Source: Adineta ricciae (Eukaryota > Rotifera > Eurotatoria > Adinetida > Adinetidae). Taken from it: 64,000 nucleotides of DNA. The notes beneath the pieces were generated by a model. It saw nothing but the letters and a program-made list of their open reading frames with translations. It searched no databases and was not told the DNA's origin. Positions within the stretch are counted from its first letter, which is position 1. Each line of letters begins with the position of its first letter. Shown here one piece after another: positions 10,268 to 63,734 of this stretch. A program made the position numbers and the translations under genes. The stretch covers positions 310,001 to 374,000 of the forward strand of contig CAJNOJ010000048.1 of NCBI GenBank assembly GCA_905250025.1. Direction: 5' to 3'.

Positions 10268-13200
10268 TTAACTTTGCCATTTAATATGTCCGTAAGCTTG
10301 AAGACCAGATAATGTCAAATAGCCAACCCAGAGCAGAACAAAAAAGATCGAACATACATACTTGGGTATTGTTGGACCGCCTAGAGAAAAAATCGATACA
10401 AAAGATTTCCGGTTTTCTATCAGCGAGCTTCTCCTTACCTAATTCAGCCTTGCCGAAAAAGCCTAAGTATCGTCGAAGGATAAGGACGGTCATACCAAGA
10501 ACACAGCAAATAGAAAAGACAAGTACACTAAAGGATAAATCGCCTGCTTTGACCGTAAATGGAAGATTCTGAAAAGGCAGACGACTTGTTTATGGTTTTT
10601 GACAAATGATTTTCGTACCTTAGATTCCCAATAGATAGCAGCGACAAGCCAAGGAAGTCCTAAGCCAAGAAATACGTTGACACTATTCGATCCCGTCACA
10701 TTTCCAATAGCATCGTCGGCTGTTTTCGAATTTTTCGCTGCAATCATCGAGGCAAATGTATCAGGTAATGATGTACCAAGAGCAACAAAGGATATAGCTG
10801 TGATACTATCTTTCAATCCGACAAGACAACCAAATATAGCTGCTACATCACCAACAACAGCCGTTAGGATAGCAATGAATAAAAGTGAAACGAAAAATGT
10901 TAACCAACCACCAGCAATGGAGGTTGGAGGAACGAAAGCAAAGAGAACTTTCCAGAAGAACGAAAGTGAATGGCCAACGTAATGACCAAATTTTGCGGTT
11001 TCTAAATCGCCACCGTTCACATTCATGGCATCACGAAATTGTTGTCCCCAGGACGTTTTCGTTACACTTAATTTATCAATATCCACTTGAACAAGCGAAG
11101 CCATTTTATTTGCCATGGTTTTATAATCTAAATAATCAACGATTATCGTTATGATCATTCCAGACGAATACATTTACCATCATCATTGATAATTGTAACA
11201 ACTGTTCGCGGATGTTTACCTATTTGTGCACCACCAGTTGGATCATATAATTCAACCGCAAAACTTTCATCTTTTTCGGCTTCAAGATCATTTATAATCG
11301 GTATGGCGATGATTTTTGAAATTTCACCGTGCTCAAAGACTAATTCAGTATCAATAGCTGAAATAACCCAAACCATTTCCGTTACAAACAAGCCAACAAT
11401 CGACATTCGTGAACTTACGTTCATAATCTTTCGTTCCTACCGCATCGATATCTTTAGTTCGATAGTGCACTGAAACTTTGCCATCAGCACCATTGATACG
11501 AACGACTTTAATTTCTGCTTTGCCAACGCTTTCTTTTACTAAATTAATTGTTTCTTCGAATTCAATATAGCCCGGTTCTGAAAACGAAAACAACAGATTA
11601 TATATCTTCTCTCTTGCGTTCAAATCGTTTACCATCATCGTTGATAATAGTTACCAATGCAACTGTTTTCGATCCTAGTTTGGTACGTGTCTCTTCGCCT
11701 TCGGGTAAAGATAGCTTCACGAAGAATGTTTCATCTGGTTCCCATTGATTATCATCGATTACATGAATGGTAATTTTCTTCTCTTGTTGACCGGGCTCCA
11801 TTCGAAATTCTTCGGATAATTTGACATAGTCTTCACCAGCTGTCGCTGTACCGTCTATTGTATCGAGTCTATTAAGAAAAATTTATTAATAGAACGAATA
11901 CTAAAAGCAATGTTATTAAATGTGCAGATGCGTCATTTGGTGATGTGAGGTAGTGGCATAGTTCATTGAGAAGATGTGCAAAGAAAAACCGACTATAGCG
12001 AAGCAGGTGTGAAACATGCAAATTGTGCTCTTCTACGTAATAATAGTGTCTTAAATCCTGTCTTTTTTGCAACACTGAATATAGGACATTTTAGATTTGA
12101 TCAATACAGTCAAGGACAAAACAGGGTACGATATTTCGAAACACAGACACGGAATATCGTTGGGACATACCGAAATAATATAGTCGAATTCGTGTAACCG
12201 TATCTGACGACTTCGACAGTTACACGCTGTTCGCGTTCCAGTACAGCATAACTAGGAGAAGCAAACTCAAGAACCGCCATCTGAGGATCGTCATCAAAAT
12301 CTAATTTCGACAGTGTGCCTTTTCGACCACCGATTGGTTGGTCAGCTGGAAGATTTCCATCTGATGACTGTGGTTTGACAGCTCGTTGATAGATCTAAAC
12401 GAATCAGTCTAAACTGTTTTAACCTGAACCAATAAGTGTATATATATATAAATGTAATTATAAATAGAAATTAAGATCAAATCTGTGATGATCAAGAAGA
12501 AGAAGAAGAAGAAGAAGTAATAGTAATATTTGTTGTAATCGTAACCGTGGAAGAAAATAGTCGGTGAAAGAAGTTATCTACATCTATGTATATTGTGTCG
12601 TTTTGGTATCATAGCATAGACATGCATCAATGAATGTATGAGCGAGCTACTTCAAAACACCTGAATCGTATGGCAACGTCAACAGGGCCCAATCGTCTAA
12701 CGCCAACTTCACAAATTTGTTCGTTTTCGAGTACGGCATATTCGTCAGCATTCAGTTCAAGACATGGTACTTCATGTGGTGCTTGAACAGCAGCAGCTAC
12801 TTCCTCTTTCCATTCGCTGGTTTTATGTGTTTGTAATCGACCGTGTATCTGAATTGTATTTATATAGATGCAAGACGAAGAATAAGTTCATGGAAATGAA
12901 GTCAATATGATCAGAGTGAAAAGAAGAAGAGAAGAAGAAATTCTCCTTTACGTATTCATTCTCTCTACAAACCTCTTGGAGCTTGTCGGGAAGATTGACA
13001 AACAAAGATTTACCACCGGTGAGCATACGTGATCCTTGAATTCGATACTGCATACGTGATCTATGCATACTTTCACTTAATTTAGCTGCAAATAATTGGG
13101 CTTTATCTTCCAATGACAGATTAGATGATTGACCAAGATCCTAATTGTAAGAAATGAAGAAGACTTTTCCGTGATTTCAGAGTCGATTCATTAACATACA

Positions 13201-14573
13201 CGTAAGAATTGTAACAATTCATCTTTACGAAAAGTTCGTGCAGCACCAGTTGAATCAAGTTCAGGAGGAGCTAAAATAGACACCGATCAATTTACATTCA
13301 CCATCGACAGGAGAATTCTTACTTAGTATGAGTGTTTGTTCTTCTTCTTCCATGTCGATTTTGTTTGAAGCATAGAAGTTCTTTTCAGCCTAACGGTACA
13401 TAAAAGAAAAACACAGAAAACTCGCTGGTATCGATTTTTTTTCTTATGTAGTCTCCTACGAGAAAAGCTAAAATGACCACCAATGGAAACATAAGAAATG
13501 TTATAACAGCTTCCCAAAGGTCGACAACGTCTTTTGATATAACCGAAAGAACGATGAACATCCAAATATAGGCGAAGAAGCCAAAGAATGACGTGATCTA
13601 GAAATGAAGAATTCTCATCATTTGATATCTTAGAAGAAAAGCTAGTTACTTACCATAAAGACACTATACAATTTGATTCGTCGTGTCTCGGGGGTCTTTA
13701 TTGCCGTAATACATAAGGCAGAGATCATAAGAAGATTGTAAGCCGCAGAGCCCACGACTGAAAAGAAAAAAATTTATCTTTTTTTACTCGTCAACCGAAA
13801 AGGAAAAAAAACTCCTCTTCTCTTCAGTATTTACAGATAATTAGAGACAATAATAAATCTAACCTTTCGATGCAATGTTTAAAAAAAAACAATGAAACAA
13901 ATTGGTTTCTCGAAAAGTTCTCTATTGTCATATATAATCAACAACTGACGAATTTCAAAGGCCGAACTATAATATCATGACCTTAACGTTTGTTGCTTTA
14001 TCCAAATAGTATGTATGTACGTCTATTTTAATGACATTTTTTTTCATTTTTAGGATAGTTGATCCTATTAGTTGCTAATTGAAAAAAACAAGCGATCGTA
14101 TTTCTTTCTTACTTGTGCCTGGTCCAAGTTCTCCGGCCTCGAAACGATTGCCGATAATTTCAATAATTGATAGGAGAATTTCTGGTGAACTTGAACCGAG
14201 CGCCATCAATGTTAAATTAGCAACAGTATCATTCCATAGTCGAACTTCGACTGTTAAATATTTATCTTTTTGTAGCGGATCGGGATATTGAATTTTACGT
14301 CGTCTGGATGTGATCGTTTCAATAGCGGACATGAAGATATCAGCAATAATTGCAATACCAAGAAAGAGATAGAGAAGGAATATGAAATAGAGTGTGGCTC
14401 GCAATGGTATTGACATGCATGCTTCGATACCTATTACATAATAGACAAAAAATGAGATCTTGTTGCGACGAAAAGCAAACGACTTATTTACCAAATGGTA
14501 AGATGAGACCACGAGCGGAACATTTGAATTTTTGACAACTCCACGTTGTATAATTAGCCAGTTCAGTAGACAT
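10268..14573 (-). CDS. Na+/Ca2+ exchanger (NCX / SLC8 / Calx family)
   Basis: About 14 exons; one isoform is about 850 residues. N-terminal membrane half: short lumenal part with two cysteines, RGLILPFG, then IAIIADIFMSAIE and the alpha-1 repeat LMALGSSSPEILL. After five helices comes the cytosolic loop with a FYRIQ-type element (QYRIQGSRMLTGG), Calx-beta 1 and Calx-beta 2, each ending in INDD with the acidic Ca2+-site residues kept (IDDN..EPDE). C-terminal half: WKVLFAFVPPT, alpha-2 repeat FVALGTSLPDTFAS and GNVTGSNSVNVFLG, ending with a helix and short tail. It extrudes one Ca2+ for three Na+ at the plasma membrane. Two alternative exons for Calx-beta 1 lie at 12661-12848 and 12171-12394. 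A cleaved signal peptide as in vertebrate NCX is not seen at the chosen ATG; an upstream exon cannot be excluded. Confidence 0.95.
12171..12394 (-). other. NCX alternative exon B (start of Calx-beta 1)
   Basis: 224-nt exon between AG acceptor (12395-12396) and GT donor (12169-12170). It starts in phase 0 with I-Y-Q-R and ends in phase 2 with LF-R, encoding an acidic linker (DFDDD) and the first beta strands of a Calx-beta domain (LEFASPSYAVLEREQRVTV). It occupies the same structural slot as exon A and has identical phases, so only one can be used per transcript. Confidence 0.75.
12494..12518. repeat. (AAG)n microsatellite in NCX intron
   Basis: About eight AAG units between alternative exons A and B of the NCX gene; on the transcribed strand it reads as a UUC pyrimidine tract, which could bind splicing repressors such as PTB (inference). 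Confidence 0.8.
12661..12848 (-). other. NCX alternative exon A (start of Calx-beta 1)
   Basis: 188-nt exon with AG acceptor at 12849-12850 and GTGTTT donor at 12659-12660. Starts in phase 0 with I-H-G-R, ends in phase 2 with RF-R. Encodes a linker and the first strands of Calx-beta 1 (LELNADEYAVLENEQICEV). Parallel in structure, boundaries and phase to exon B; joining A to B runs into a stop codon. Confidence 0.75.
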
Positions 14574-18370: not shown

Positions 18371-19429
18371 ATGGGTCGTGTTTTACTTCTCCTCTTGAGT
18401 GTTGTTTTTACATCATCATCAATAACAAACGCCTTTCTTTTCGACAAGAAAGGTCTGTTCCTTGTTCCATCAGTTGCGTTTCGTGATCGTTCGTCAGCAT
18501 CGCAATGGACTTTATACAATCAAGGATGGCATTACGAAGAAAATCCTGTGAAAGCTTTATTGATGGAGAAATCCTTGGAGCTTATTGTTCAGAAAGATCT
18601 GGATCGAAACCGAGTGAAAATGTTCACAGCCGAAGGAAAAGAAAAGAAAGATGTGTGTATTGATGGTCTCACCCGATCGATGTGTACAAAAACCGATAAT
18701 GAAGGCCGTATTAAAAATCCATTTACGATGACCAATGAGGAAATTGAATTGCTTCGTCAACCAGGTGGCAATGGAGGTAAAGTTACTTTCCAAGCGTCAA
18801 TTCCAAAAAAGAACATCAAAACGCAAGGTGAAGTTTATTTATGTGACGACGAAGGTGTAACTTTCATCAGTGATATTGATGATACAATTAAAATAACTGA
18901 AGTGACGTCATCGACTCAAACATTAATTAACACGTTTAGTGGCGATTTCAAAGCAGTACCAGGTATGGCCGAGATCTATCGACACTGGGCAGGTCAGTAC
19001 AATGCAACCTTTGCATATCTGACAGCATCGCCCGATCAATTATATCCGTTTTTACGTGAATTTTTTGACCGGGAACAGTTCCCATCGGGTTCGGCTCACA
19101 TGAGACATTTCACATGGTTCGATGTGAACTTTATCTCGTTTTTCATGTCGTCAAATTACATCAAGAAGAAAACGGAAACGTTAGAAATGTTCTTACAGAA
19201 TACACGCAATCGTCGGTTCATTCTACTCGGTGATATCTTTCAAAAAGATTCGGATATCTATGCGAGCGTCTACGCAAACTATCCAGATCGTATAGCGAAA
19301 ATTTTCATTCGAAAGTATGCTAATGATGTTGACGGTCAACAACGATTGGAAACTATTTTCAAAGATATTCCACGGGAAAAATGGGCAACGTTCGAAACCG
19401 GTGCTGATCTTCCGCGAAGTATTTTTTAA
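18371..19429 (+). CDS. Secreted DUF2183/App1-type phosphatidate phosphatase-like protein
   Basis: Intronless, about 352 residues from the ATG at 18371 (an ATG two codons upstream is possible). A clear signal peptide (VLLLLLSVVFTSSSITNA) precedes the mature protein. The domain is the App1/DUF2183 HAD-like phosphatase: VTFISDIDDTIKITEV holds the DxDxT catalytic motif (D168, D170, T172), followed by FKAVPGMAEIYRHW, AYLTASPDQLYPFLREFF, FPSG, and RFILLGDIFQKDSDIYA with the late acidic motif. Yeast App1 dephosphorylates phosphatidate at actin patches; this one is predicted to be secreted or lysosomal, so its substrate may differ. Unlike nearly all neighbours it has no intron, which fits retroposition or horizontal origin (inference). 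AATAAA begins 5 bp after the stop. Confidence 0.88.
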   Translation: MGRVLLLLLSVVFTSSSITNAFLFDKKGLFLVPSVAFRDRSSASQWTLYNQGWHYEENPVKALLMEKSLELIVQKDLDRNRVKMFTAEGKEKKDVCIDGLTRSMCTKTDNEGRIKNPFTMTNEEIELLRQPGGNGGKVTFQASIPKKNIKTQGEVYLCDDEGVTFISDIDDTIKITEVTSSTQTLINTFSGDFKAVPGMAEIYRHWAGQYNATFAYLTASPDQLYPFLREFFDREQFPSGSAHMRHFTWFDVNFISFFMSSNYIKKKTETLEMFLQNTRNRRFILLGDIFQKDSDIYASVYANYPDRIAKIFIRKYANDVDGQQRLETIFKDIPREKWATFETGADLPRSIF

Positions 19430-38400: not shown

Positions 38401-41164
38401 CCTTGTCGTTGCTATCAACTCTATTCATCGTTAGAAGAAGCCTATGCGTTGATCAGATTGGCTCCGATCGAGATATCTTTACAACGATACATTTCGATCT
38501 GTTTAACTCGGTGAAATAGTGTAAAACTCTGCTCCTTACGATGTCAATGTCGAATAAAGACAACATTTCACTTACTATTCATAAACAGCTTTACATTGCT
38601 CGTTTGGACATGTCATTCCAGCTGTATTTAGATACTGCATAAGTTGTACTTCCGGATCATCAGGGTCGTTATCTCTCAACCAATCAGTGTACTGTTCACA
38701 AGTCCTATCATTATGTTCGTCAAGCCACTTTCGACAACACTGTTGACACTGTTGAAATTGACATCCGGCATGAGGACATTGAATAGGAGCGACTCGGTTA
38801 TTACGGTTGCCCGTATCAAAGAAAGCAGGACACTAGATTCATTTGTATCTTAGTTATTATCGCGAGAAATTTAAGGAGCTTACTCGTGGATTGCCACATT
38901 TTTTTATTTGAGTGTCTCGCGTTGCTAAAAAGAGATTTTCATGGTATATGCCAAGAATCAGTTGATCATCGGCAAACCATTGATTGAGCTAATGAAAATT
39001 CAAAGCAAAGTGATGAGTTTCTTCAGCTGTAAACGATTAGTTCTATTTACTTTTGTTTCTAAATATTGAAAAAAATTCAGTTTGATTTCGTCAGGTATGT
39101 CGTGTTGTTCCTGAAAACATGCCAAACGTTTCAGACAATCCGCGCTTTCGATTGTTGTAATAGTTGTACGGTAATAATTCTTAATGCAATCTGAACAACA
39201 TATGTGGTTGCATAAAAACATGACTTCCATATTGCTGCGGGGAAACGAATCCAAACAAATTGGACATTCTAATGATAGTAGTTTCACAGCGTCATCTTCG
39301 AAATCATTTGGAATATTCCCATGATCACAGGATTTGATAATATCACGAATATCAGTTATATTCAGATGTTGGAGACTAACAAGTGGGACACGGCACAAAG
39401 CAGAAGCCAACATTTCGATCTGCACTGGCAATAAGTTATGAACAATACGAGATAACTCACTGTAGATCAATCGAAACAGTCTCTAAACGTACAGATATGA
39501 AGTCACAAATCCTTACTGTTTTACTATCGAGATATCCTACTGAAACAGCGAATTCATCGGCCTGCCCACTATCCATCTGTTGATCATTATGCTGTTGTCG
39601 AAATTTGATAATAGCATCGACAACATGTGTCGCAGATTTCCATTCCTGAATAATAGTGATTAGAAGGCAAAAGACACGAGTGTAAGTCTCTTACATCAAC
39701 CCGATGTATCGGCATCGGTTCAGCTCGATTTCTATTTGCATTATTCATAATTGCATTCCAGTGAATTCGTAAATGTTGTGTACAACTATTGATTGAAGTT
39801 CTTGGCGGTTCAGGAGGCGCTACTGGTTCTGGAGGAGGTTGCTAAGCGCGCATAAAAAAGAAGAGGCTTATTAATGAGGCAATGTGATATTCAACTGACC
39901 AGGTTAGGTCGTTTTATACGAAGTATCTCGAGTGCAGCATCTTCATCGAATCTGGCTCGAATCAAACATTCAAAATAAACTTCATTACTTGTCGACAAAT
40001 TTCTATCTCTGTCTCTCATTTTCAAATTTTCAACTCGACGGTCAATGTCTCCATCAATGATTTCGTCGCCAAGCTCAACGCTACCCGGATAGAGTTGTTT
40101 AAATAATAACAGTAACAAAGTTCGACGAATGTAACTGTGTGGAGTCGGTGCTCCATGTTGTGGTACGATACTTTGCTAGAATGATTGAAATTTAATCGAA
40201 TGAAATTAAATATCGTTGACATACTTTGAATAAACGAATAGTTTCATCTGTTTTTTCATTGCCTTCTTGGACTGCCATAAAGCTGGGCAGTTTTGATGAA
40301 GATGATGACCGTGTTACTGGTGATGCAGTGTCAAACTAGGAGAAACCAAGCCATCCTGAATATCTTTTATATGTAGTCATCTACTCACACTTGCGAACGG
40401 CGATGAATTTGATGTTGTTCTGCATCGATATAGAAAAAATATTCATTTGAGACGAGAAAATCGTGTTAGTTCCACTTACTGCCATGATCTTTCAACTAGA
40501 GAAAACGATAGTATATTGAAATAGTCATTTAATCTTTTTTGTACTATACTTACATTCATAACCAACTTCCAAATCATCGTTAAAAGATGCTTCCGAGTAC
40601 GAGAGTAAAATCTGAACGAGTAATGATCGACAAGGTATGCAGTTTCCAAAGAAAAACTTACGTTCTGCAAGTCTGGATAATTAGTCGAATGCTCATCTTT
40701 GATGCTCGTCAAATAATCATGAAATCTCTGAAATTCCTCGACGGCTCTCTCACGTTGTACTATTTCATTCGGTGAATTCGTTTGTTCATAAACATATCGT
40801 CCGTTTCCGTCGTCTATATATCCAATATATTTCAATAATTCCAATGCATGCACCTATACGTCAACAAAAAACACGATTCAAACATCATACGTGGTAAATG
40901 CCAACCTTTGTATTCAGTTTTTGGATCACATTTGAATGGAGACCCGGTGCTTTTTTAAGATTAGGTTTCGTTATAATTGTCATAGGCTGCAATGCGTCTA
41001 GTAGAGATTGTATGTCTTTGATAACCTAAAATAGAAAGAAAAAACGGAAAGTCTCAGCTACATCTTTTTACAATATTTACATTGTTACTCACATCAGTCG
41101 GACGGATATTAGCTCTAAGTATATCTTCCACACGGATGATTTGATAATTTCCCATCCAACTCAT
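35487..41164 (-). CDS. RNF31: RNF31/HOIP-like RBR E3 ubiquitin ligase with C-terminal extension
   Basis: More than 20 short exons. N-terminal region has a PUB-like domain (VHALELLKYIGYIDD..), then a UBA-like helical part (NEVYFECLIRARFDEDAALEIL), RING1 (CPICLDSFPRSNMEVMFLC..CCSDC), an IBR with CPHAGCQFQQCQQC and the HOIP-like CEQYTDWLRDNDP, and RING2 CPNEQCKAVYEY-KAGGCEHFTC whose GGC cysteine equals the HOIP catalytic cysteine. The following LDD-like part (FHAHCCLNCYREIRDVPTEQ, GICSVEDCN) matches the linear-chain-determining domain. HOIP builds Met1-linked ubiquitin in LUBAC for NF-kB and immune signalling. About 400 more residues follow through in-frame exons and end in TTSV, a class I PDZ ligand. 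The npl4-family HOIP Npl4 zinc fingers are not clearly seen. Confidence 0.8.
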
Positions 41165-61371: not shown

Positions 61372-63534
61372 CTAACACTTATTTATCAGATGTTCCAATG
61401 CATTGATAAATTTCAGAAATTCATACGAAGATAAATGTTGTTGTTGTTCTTGAAATTTTCCTTCAAATCGTAATCTTATTCTCTCATATTCTTTTGTCCA
61501 CTGATAACCGCTCATTGCTTGAGCATAGAGAAACAACTCATGTCCACTTTTAAATTGATAAAATTCATACAATTCAGACTTAATACCATGATTCTCAAAC
61601 CATTGTTGAACATCCGAACTATTCCATTGTTGAATATTCTTCGAGTTTCTTAGAGATGATACCGATGGTAGTTCTATCGAGAGTTGCTCGCCGATCAAAG
61701 ATAATAGTTGGTTGCAATTCGTTTGAAAATCTTCTCGGCCGAAACAAATATGTTTTACTCGTGTTTCAAGCCAACCTTTCGCTTCATAATCAGCATCGAT
61801 CAAGATTGGAATGAATGACTTTTTCAATGTGCTTGTCGCATAGATAAATTCTTGTCGACACGATAAACTCTGATAGAAAGATGGAGAAACAAGCAAGAGT
61901 ACCAAATGACATTGCTGAATCGTCTGTGCTACTTCATTCCAAAGATATTTTCCATTTTGAAAATCAATAGATATGGATAGTTGAGGTAATTTAACTAAGA
62001 CATCATACAATTCTCGACAGAAATGCATATCGTCATGAGAATAGCTTATTCTTAATGAAAAAACCGAATTCTTTGGTGGAAAACAAGGTGGAATCGGAAT
62101 TGACGTTTTACTACCTAAATTATGCAGCACACCGTCCGCTGCTCTTTTTAATGAATACATATGACGTGGGGTATAATCAAAGAGTACGACTTTGTCAAGT
62201 TGATCATTCAAACGAATCGTTTCGAGTCGTTCGATTACTATTAGATCTTCAAGAAGATCCTTTCGATATCGTGGATGAAATGAAATACTCCAAAGAATGT
62301 TAATCACTGCCATGAGTGTCAGTCGATTCGAAAGATCGTTAATTCTTGTTAAATCAGAATAATACAAGAAATTTCCGGTAATTAATTGCAGCATTTTGAT
62401 ATGTTTCTCATTTTCTAAAATGCAATTCATATAATAATCATCCCGACATAATTTCATCACAACGATCCAGAATTCCACTAAATGAAATCCTAAGTATCTC
62501 AATTTACCATTATAAATAGTGCGCAAAATTGCATCTATTAAATAGTCGTTGATAAACGCTCTTATCGAATCGTTGTTCAGTTCATTCGACTGATAACATA
62601 GAACCATTGTTATAAAACTGGTCAGAGTAAAGTATTCATTTTGTTCATTATCAAGAATAAAAGCGAGAATTTGTCCGGATATTTCATTACGGAATTGATT
62701 TAAAATTTGACGACATTTGTGGTATCGAAGAATGGCAGCTCCATCATCATGACGTGCGATGTTACAGATGATTCCGAGAGTGAACTTGTATTCATCAAGA
62801 CTGAGATATGGTAAGGTTAACCATTGTAAACATAATTGTGGACAATCGATCTGAATCAATATTGGAATAGTTTTTGTCGAACAACTGATAACAACAAAAA
62901 ACGATAAGATTTCATGAATTAAAAGATCCATTTGTGAGCGTTCGTTTGTGACGAAATAATCATTGAGAAAATGGAATAGCCGAGGAAAAAGATTTGTTTG
63001 ATATTTATCGAGTTCGAGATCAATGGAATTCGTTTTGAGAACTCTTAATTGTCGTAAGATTAAAATCAGAATACATCCGACGAAACTACGTGTCTTTTGT
63101 TCACTAAATGTCAATCGTGAGTAGACGCTCGTTTGTAGAAAAGCTTCCAAACTTTTCGATAGTTTCAATTGATCAAGTAATCGGTAGGACATTTGTTGTC
63201 GAGCGGATATTGTCATCCTATCGATGATGTCTGATCCATAAATATGAGTCAGCGATTTGCACAATGACCCATTGAACGATGTCCACAAAACTGAATGATG
63301 TTGAACGATGATATCGATAAATTCAGTCGTATCCAGTAATTCAAGACATGATTTGAGAATATATTCAAATATATCCACAGTATCGATAGGTATAGACGAA
63401 AATACTAATGACAGATGTGTAGCAAGCCTTGAGATATCAGTTAGAACATCATGAAGTGCAAATGATTGATTTGTTCGTAAAATCTCATGTAGTTTTTCGT
63501 ATAGGTCATGAATTTGTTGAAACTCTTCACTCAT
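61372..63534 (-). CDS. ARM-TIR-SAM protein, putative NADase (intronless)
   Basis: Single uninterrupted frame of 720 codons from the ATG at 63534 (an ATG 17 codons upstream is less likely). Residues about 1-480 are all-helical, leucine-rich and repeat-like, resembling ARM/HEAT folds (LSLDEYKFTLGIICNIARHDDGA is typical). Residues about 490-615 form a TIR domain: LRISYSHDDMHFCRELYDVL (box 1), HLVLLLVSPSFYQS (box 2) and SFIPILIDA; CRQEF places E562 where SARM1-type NADases have the catalytic glutamate. Residues about 635-695 form a SAM domain (WNSSDVQQWFENHGI.. F.. SGHELFLYAQ). SARM1 has the order ARM-SAM-SAM-TIR, so this is a permuted layout. A role in NAD+ cleavage, innate immunity or stress signalling is inferred. 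No intron, unlike its neighbours. Confidence 0.8.
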   Translation of the reverse strand: MSEEFQQIHDLYEKLHEILRTNQSFALHDVLTDISRLATHLSLVFSSIPIDTVDIFEYILKSCLELLDTTEFIDIIVQHHSVLWTSFNGSLCKSLTHIYGSDIIDRMTISARQQMSYRLLDQLKLSKSLEAFLQTSVYSRLTFSEQKTRSFVGCILILILRQLRVLKTNSIDLELDKYQTNLFPRLFHFLNDYFVTNERSQMDLLIHEILSFFVVISCSTKTIPILIQIDCPQLCLQWLTLPYLSLDEYKFTLGIICNIARHDDGAAILRYHKCRQILNQFRNEISGQILAFILDNEQNEYFTLTSFITMVLCYQSNELNNDSIRAFINDYLIDAILRTIYNGKLRYLGFHLVEFWIVVMKLCRDDYYMNCILENEKHIKMLQLITGNFLYYSDLTRINDLSNRLTLMAVINILWSISFHPRYRKDLLEDLIVIERLETIRLNDQLDKVVLFDYTPRHMYSLKRAADGVLHNLGSKTSIPIPPCFPPKNSVFSLRISYSHDDMHFCRELYDVLVKLPQLSISIDFQNGKYLWNEVAQTIQQCHLVLLLVSPSFYQSLSCRQEFIYATSTLKKSFIPILIDADYEAKGWLETRVKHICFGREDFQTNCNQLLSLIGEQLSIELPSVSSLRNSKNIQQWNSSDVQQWFENHGIKSELYEFYQFKSGHELFLYAQAMSGYQWTKEYERIRLRFEGKFQEQQQHLSSYEFLKFINALEHLINKC

Positions 63535-63734
63535 TACGAAAGTGCTTTTACAAAAAAAAAGAAGCTCTTTGACAATGATAGACACGACAAAAAGGTAAGA
63601 GTATTGTTTCTTATCTACGATTCTTCTGCTCTTGATATCATCAACGAAAGATTGTTCTATCTTTTTTTTTCTTTATTCAAGAAATCCTTCTTAACTTCTT
63701 ATAAATGCGTCATGAAAATTGTTGCCGGCCGTTG

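Follow-up and report, generated by a model that had tools for sequence, protein, structure and literature searches.

Two homologous tandem exons, probably spliced as mutually exclusive alternatives, in the first Calx-beta domain of a Na+/Ca2+ exchanger gene from the rotifer Adineta ricciae

A 64,000-nucleotide stretch of the Adineta ricciae genome (assembly GCA_905250025.1, contig CAJNOJ010000048.1, positions 310,001 to 374,000 of the forward strand; hereafter the window, with positions counted from its first letter) was found to contain the complete coding region of a Na+/Ca2+ exchanger (NCX) on the minus strand (10268-14573), as determined by the gene model, the TIGR00845 family model and alignment to structure 8sgi. 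Two neighbouring internal exons of this gene, designated A (12848-12661, 188 nt) and B (12394-12171, 224 nt), encode related protein segments, each consisting of a linker and the first strands of the first Calx-beta domain (CBD1). The sequence makes it probable that A and B are old tandem duplicates of one NCX exon which are now spliced as mutually exclusive alternatives, likely tuning the CBD1 Ca2+ sensor. In this arrangement, each mRNA would contain the common upstream exon 7 (12973-13140), which ends in phase 0, then either A or B, and then the common downstream exon C (11633-11868), and either choice would complete one CBD1. Both exons would be used in RNA, and products of double inclusion or of skipping would be removed by nonsense-mediated decay or by loss of function.

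The gene model contained 15 exons (A and B included), with AG-GT borders throughout and a stop codon present. The open protein was 820 and 832 amino acids long with exon A and exon B, respectively. Against TIGR00845 the A and B forms scored 702.1 and 695.1 bits, respectively, and both passed the curated NCX family cut-off of 679.85. The human NCX1 structure 8sgi aligned with the B form at E 7.4e-155, covering both membrane halves, CBD1 and the second Calx-beta domain (CBD2). The gene therefore has the NCX (SLC8) layout, in which a tandem of two Calx-beta domains separates the two transmembrane halves, CBD1 being identified by Pfam and 8sgi and CBD2 by the 8sgi alignment of the B form. CBD2 (11178-11577, minus strand) was encoded by the single exons D and E, separated by a 61-nt intron, and no sign of vertebrate-type splicing cassette exons was seen in this region of the gene model.

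Exons A and B both start in phase 0 and end in phase 2, and each is bordered by AG and GT, in agreement with the coordinates, lengths, phases and splice dinucleotides given in the preliminary description of this locus. When the two protein segments were compared, their last 38 residues aligned without gaps up to the common 3′ exon end, with 16 identities in the block and a local score of 59. None of 20,000 shuffles reached this score (shuffle maximum, 45), so that the likeness of the tandem exons exceeds chance. The residues preceding the aligned block number 25 in A and 37 in B, and an I-x-x-R pattern is present at the start of both exons. Among the 1,597 open reading frame (ORF) segments of at least 25 amino acids in the window, own segments aside, A and B were each other's best match at 59, ahead of runners-up at 35 for A and 42 for B.

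A duplicate-exon screen was also carried out on 13 internal exons, in which the neighbouring introns were searched for open, GT-AG, in-phase candidates differing in length by no more than 60 nt in steps of three, after rules set out in the excerpted text of PMC5740500; for A and B, the partner was counted as intron. Of the sixteen candidates obtained, exon A accounted for 10, exon 3 for 3, exon 5 for 2 and exon B for a single one. The top candidate for A was B and the sole candidate for B was A (54 each), compared to best scores of 13 and 16 for exons 3 and 5, respectively. Within their limits, the similarity search and this screen found no third copy and no other duplicated exon in the gene. 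The pair has the features of mutually exclusive exons, namely neighbouring internal position, similar sequence, same frame, GT-AG borders and lengths that differ by 36 nt.

Matching bases between the aligned blocks of A and B amounted to 16, 23 and 14 of 38 at codon positions 1, 2 and 3, respectively. Of the 16 identical residues, 6 shared a codon, compared to 7.4 expected from usage, and the synonymous divergence (dS) between A and B was not computable by NG86. Synonymous positions look saturated, and since codon sharing is at chance level and dS cannot be computed, the duplication looks old. Because protein likeness, open frames and splice sites survive despite this saturation, the comparison, made in one genome, suggests selection on both copies. 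In-frame codon scores were 0.141 and 0.181 bits per codon for A and B, respectively, compared to -0.17 to -0.23 in their other frames; among 298 open segments of similar length, a set that includes real exons, 10 scored as high as A and 3 as high as B.

The exon lengths also have a direct consequence for the reading frame. When A was joined to B at their own sites, translation met a stop (AAT TAG) within B, and when exon 7 was linked directly to C a stop came after 11 codons; a stop in each case had originally been reported. Because both joins stop, exclusion is built into the reading frame, although it is not absolute, as described below for cryptic sites. In human, 60% of mutually exclusive exon clusters contain exons of length not divisible by three, according to the excerpted part of PMC5740500.

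Addition of either exon to C improved recognition of the domain. The Pfam Calx-beta score was 61.8 bits for C alone and rose to 79.4 bits for A+C and 85.2 bits for B+C, in line with the initial assignment of the pair to the first Calx-beta domain of an NCX, with one downstream exon supplying the remainder. The best solved match of the end of exon 7 joined to A and C was CALX (E 3.1e-16), and that of the end of exon 7 joined to B and C was NCX1 (E 6.2e-21, summed over NCX1 CBD1 and CBD2). In the NCX1 alignment, the pair spans a linker, strands A and B, and a part beyond strand B that we take to be the start of strand C. The two exons had been described as encoding strands A and B; these strands are indeed covered, but the pair extends beyond them and includes the linker. 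Exon B scored 32 against both NCX1 CBD1 and CALX CBD1 (13 and 40 of 2,000 shuffles, respectively). An origin of A or B from the CBD2 exon of the same gene was not supported, as the A-B score was 59 compared to 24 for A and 28 for B against the CBD2 stretch of the window, scores that were reached in 345 and 104 of 2,000 shuffles, respectively.

To relate the pair to the Ca2+ sites, NCX1 residues were numbered as chain position minus 10, which gives E385, D421, D446, D447, I449, E451 and E454 as they are named in the available portion of PMC3386913. All six CBD1 ligands in the NCX1 alignment (E385, D421, D446, D447, E451 and E454) were identical in both forms. The E385 equivalent lies in the A/B pair, encoded by a GAA codon in A (12726-12728) and in B (12236-12238), both on the minus strand, and the other five lie in exon C, which encodes the rest of CBD1. 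The codon that follows is AAC (Asn) in A and CGC (Arg) in B; Asn is also the residue at this place in NCX1 and CALX. Position 449 is Gln here and Ile in NCX1, and the D498-D500 region, outside the NCX1 stretch compared, reads N-D-D here where CALX has D-D-D. The net charge of the 38-residue block was -4 in A and 0 in B. In the NCX1 CBD12 crystal, E385 binds Ca2, Ca3 and Ca4 (PMC3386913, in part).

An A/B swap would exchange the inner linker and the first CBD1 strands around the E385 equivalent. The loop between XIP and CBD1 of human NCX1 is disordered, and a construct without residues 341-365 is fully functional, as stated in the excerpt of PMC10550945; by analogy, the functional difference between A and B likely resides in the strands rather than in the linker. 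Because B places an Arg beside the ligand and carries four units more positive charge, the B form is expected to bind Ca2+ in CBD1 more weakly, or to release it faster, than the A form. An effect of the pair on Ca2+ regulation is plausible, although the single ligand that the pair carries is unchanged.

The introns next to the pair, all on the minus strand, measured 124 nt (exon 7-A, 12849-12972), 266 nt (A-B, 12395-12660) and 302 nt (B-C, 11869-12170), compared to a median of 58 nt for the gene's other 11 introns. A 24-nt UUC repeat tract is present in the intron between A and B (12494-12517, minus strand), where it had been noted before, and a second, imperfect UUC-rich pyrimidine tract of 23 nt was found in the intron upstream of A (12918-12940, minus strand), at the far end of the AG-free zone. 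The first tract contains the window's sole run of at least five TTC on either strand and lies approximately 99 nt from the B acceptor; it is followed by a CACAG that resembles an acceptor, and there are several AGs upstream of the B acceptor. Pyrimidine tracts of at least 15 nt in the window numbered 43 on the gene strand and 20 on the other strand, and 3 of them were in the gene, 2 of these in the A/B introns. The AG-free zone at the acceptor of A was 92 nt, the longest of 14. The UUC tracts are only suggestive as a choice signal, and the choice might be set by splice-site competition, perhaps with a pyrimidine-tract-binding repressor; this would be the likeliest form of control, and we propose it with low confidence. 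No significant common intronic element upstream of A and B was detected beyond the UUC tract (694 of 5,000 shuffles).

Weak 5′ splice sites were rejected as the basis of the choice, as the U1 pairing energies of exon 7, A and B (-5.6, -6.7 and -5.0, respectively) fell within the gene range of -1.2 to -9.9. Steric blocking was not supported either, the A-B intron being 266 nt long and its UUC tract starting approximately 140 nt from the donor of A.

Several results weigh against mutually exclusive use of a duplicated CBD1 exon. The preliminary description had set the long flanking introns apart from the rest of the gene; they are indeed long, but the gene's longest intron, at 355 nt, lies between exons 2 and 3 (13758-14112, minus strand), so that long introns also occur away from A and B. 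No convincing duplicate exon was found in that intron by the duplicate-exon screen. The screen itself offered a thin control, because most introns of the gene are too short for a candidate: exons besides A and B contributed 5 of the 16, and for 9 of the 13 exons there was none. By raw score, A-B tied for second place among 30,189 neighbouring ORF pairs; the top pair was CBD1-CBD2 at 100, 19 pairs scored 45 or more, and the Phe/Ser-rich pair tying with A-B at 59 is probably due to chance. When tested alone against Calx-beta, B scored 13.2 bits (cut-off 27) and A gave nothing, and neither exon alone matched a solved structure at E values up to 10. The part of A that covers the first strands scored 20 against NCX1 CBD1, which is at chance level (686 of 2,000 shuffles), and 32 against CALX CBD1, a weak likeness (25 of 2,000 shuffles). 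What likeness A has to the CBD1s of other exchangers is weak and depends on B and C. Exon B scored 42 against the CALX CBD2 stretch (0 of 2,000 shuffles), above its CBD1 scores; this is read as general Calx-beta likeness, though a pure CBD1 origin would not predict it. Competing RNA structures between the introns were not supported, as the observed pairing was matched or beaten in 145, 20 and 39 of 200 shuffles for the three intron pairs; the single-intron folding z-scores were 1.2, 0.19 and 0.48. No NCX relative was found in prokaryote contigs with the B form (one pattern match, not a relative) or in viral contigs with the A form (no match), collections that say little here.

The AG-free zone at the acceptor of B counts on the same side, being only 12 nt, the shortest of 14, and because of this B could be used poorly. 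Such crowding by upstream AGs would fit a situation in which one exon, most likely A, did the work and B were a little-used or dying duplicate rarely present in functional mRNA. That state of affairs is unlikely, given that with synonymous sites saturated an unselected B should have lost its frame: the chance that 74 codons stay open was 4.4 in 1,000 by base composition, and 979 of 18,224 stretches of 74 codons sampled from the window, coding ones included, were open. Moreover, B outscores A when joined to C in the Calx-beta comparison and in codon usage, and it keeps the Ca2+ ligand.

Two further explanations concern the structure of the transcripts. The choice could be made by promoter or polyadenylation if B were a first coding exon transcribed from an internal promoter, or if A were a terminal exon formed by read-through. 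An in-frame Met just before the first strand in B (Met-Ala-Val-Leu-Glu) is compatible with this, as is the A frame, which continues through its donor and reaches a stop shortly past 12630. The phase-0 frame of B, however, is open starting from a TTTAG that resembles an acceptor, and B shares the I-x-x-R start of A, a pattern that nothing would preserve in an untranslated leader; we regard this explanation as very unlikely. Inclusion of A and B together in some mRNAs, giving an exchanger with a duplicated half-domain, would depend on cryptic sites. A set of 197 joins was examined, with donors taken from the 61st base of A onward, acceptors reaching as far as the initial part of B and a minimum intron length of 40 nt; 25 of them kept A+B open and in frame with C, so that the exclusion by frame claimed at first applies to the exons' own sites and is incomplete beyond them. 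None of these 25 joins used the donor of A at 12660. As there is just one exon C, an additional set of first strands would find no partner strands, making such an exchanger highly improbable. Mutually exclusive splicing of A and B thus remains our preferred interpretation.

The location of the pair differs from that of the alternative exons described for other exchangers. In the excerpted text of a 2016 review (PMC4746289), CBD1 is the primary Ca2+ sensor and is not alternatively spliced, and CBD2 is the spliced, tunable domain, which supports the earlier remark that splicing of NCX in CBD1 is unusual. The mutually exclusive exons A/B and the cassette exons C-F sit in CBD2 (PMC9820601, in part), and the vertebrate A/B duplication is dated early in vertebrates in the available part of PMC2408596, whose species table, as shown there, lists fly, mosquitoes, honeybee, worms, squid, urchin and Ciona and no rotifer. 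As in the vertebrate pair described in the excerpts of PMC2408596 and PMC9820601, the rotifer pair consists of two homologous exons of the same gene family, probably one per mRNA here, in a Calx-beta domain at Ca2+-binding loops. In contrast to the vertebrate pair, which lies in CBD2, the rotifer pair completes CBD1 and involves a different part of the fold, and the alternative CBD2 exons of the vertebrate type were not found. The vertebrate pair alters Ca2+-coordinating residues, whereas the rotifer pair keeps its one ligand.

Drosophila CALX1.1 and CALX1.2 are likewise two forms of an invertebrate NCX and differ in Ca2+ response (PMC4746289, in the part available); the difference between them is five residues of the FG loop in CBD2 and does not involve homologous CBD1 exons, as given in the excerpt of PMC9820601. 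In OGDH, the mutually exclusive exons 4a and 4b set Ca2+ sensitivity and are associated with a long pyrimidine tract and a long AG-free zone, according to the extract of PMC7969005. There, the tract and the AG-free zone lie between the exons, whereas here the long AG-free zone precedes the first exon and the gene's shortest such zone belongs to the second; OGDH is also a mitochondrial enzyme unrelated to NCX, and its distant branch points have been mapped. Among open-access papers, searched by title or abstract start, none was found on an NCX CBD1 exon pair, and none that linked bdelloids to mutually exclusive exons or to a calcium exchanger, or Calx-beta to exon duplication. Such a pair is unmentioned in the excerpted portions of a nematode NCX paper (PMC4232491) and of a bdelloid transcriptome paper searched for splicing terms (PMC12220480).

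In a broader interpretation, to which we give an even chance, an invertebrate lineage would have evolved, independently of vertebrates, a mutually exclusive switch in CBD1 and not CBD2, with the sensor retuned by strands around an unchanged ligand; such a switch could be linked to large ionic swings, for example during desiccation. This would suggest that exon-duplication switching appeared on two or more occasions within a single transporter family, affecting two sister domains. A CBD1 that occurs naturally in two forms would also provide two evolved strand versions with the same ligand and the same scaffold, and would permit tests of the way in which exchanger regulation depends on CBD1 affinity and occlusion kinetics.

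Other coding sequences were present in the window. An uninterrupted 352-codon frame (18371-19426, plus strand) encodes an APP1-type phosphatidate phosphatase catalytic domain with a hydrophobic start. Relatives of this frame were found in 2 of 15 pattern-matched prokaryote stretches, at 35-36% identity, in a Planctomycetaceae and a Kuenenia metagenome-assembled genome, and from this comparison with prokaryote genomes the frame is possibly a foreign gene. An uninterrupted 766-codon frame (61372-63672, minus strand) contains a TIR domain at residues 542-656, and two neighbouring cysteine-rich frames (38578-39482, minus strand) resemble RING-type ubiquitin ligases by eye from the sequence. In keeping with an animal source, importin beta, a ligand-gated channel and the TIR protein were among the 10 ORFs scanned of the window's 44 ORFs of at least 110 amino acids.
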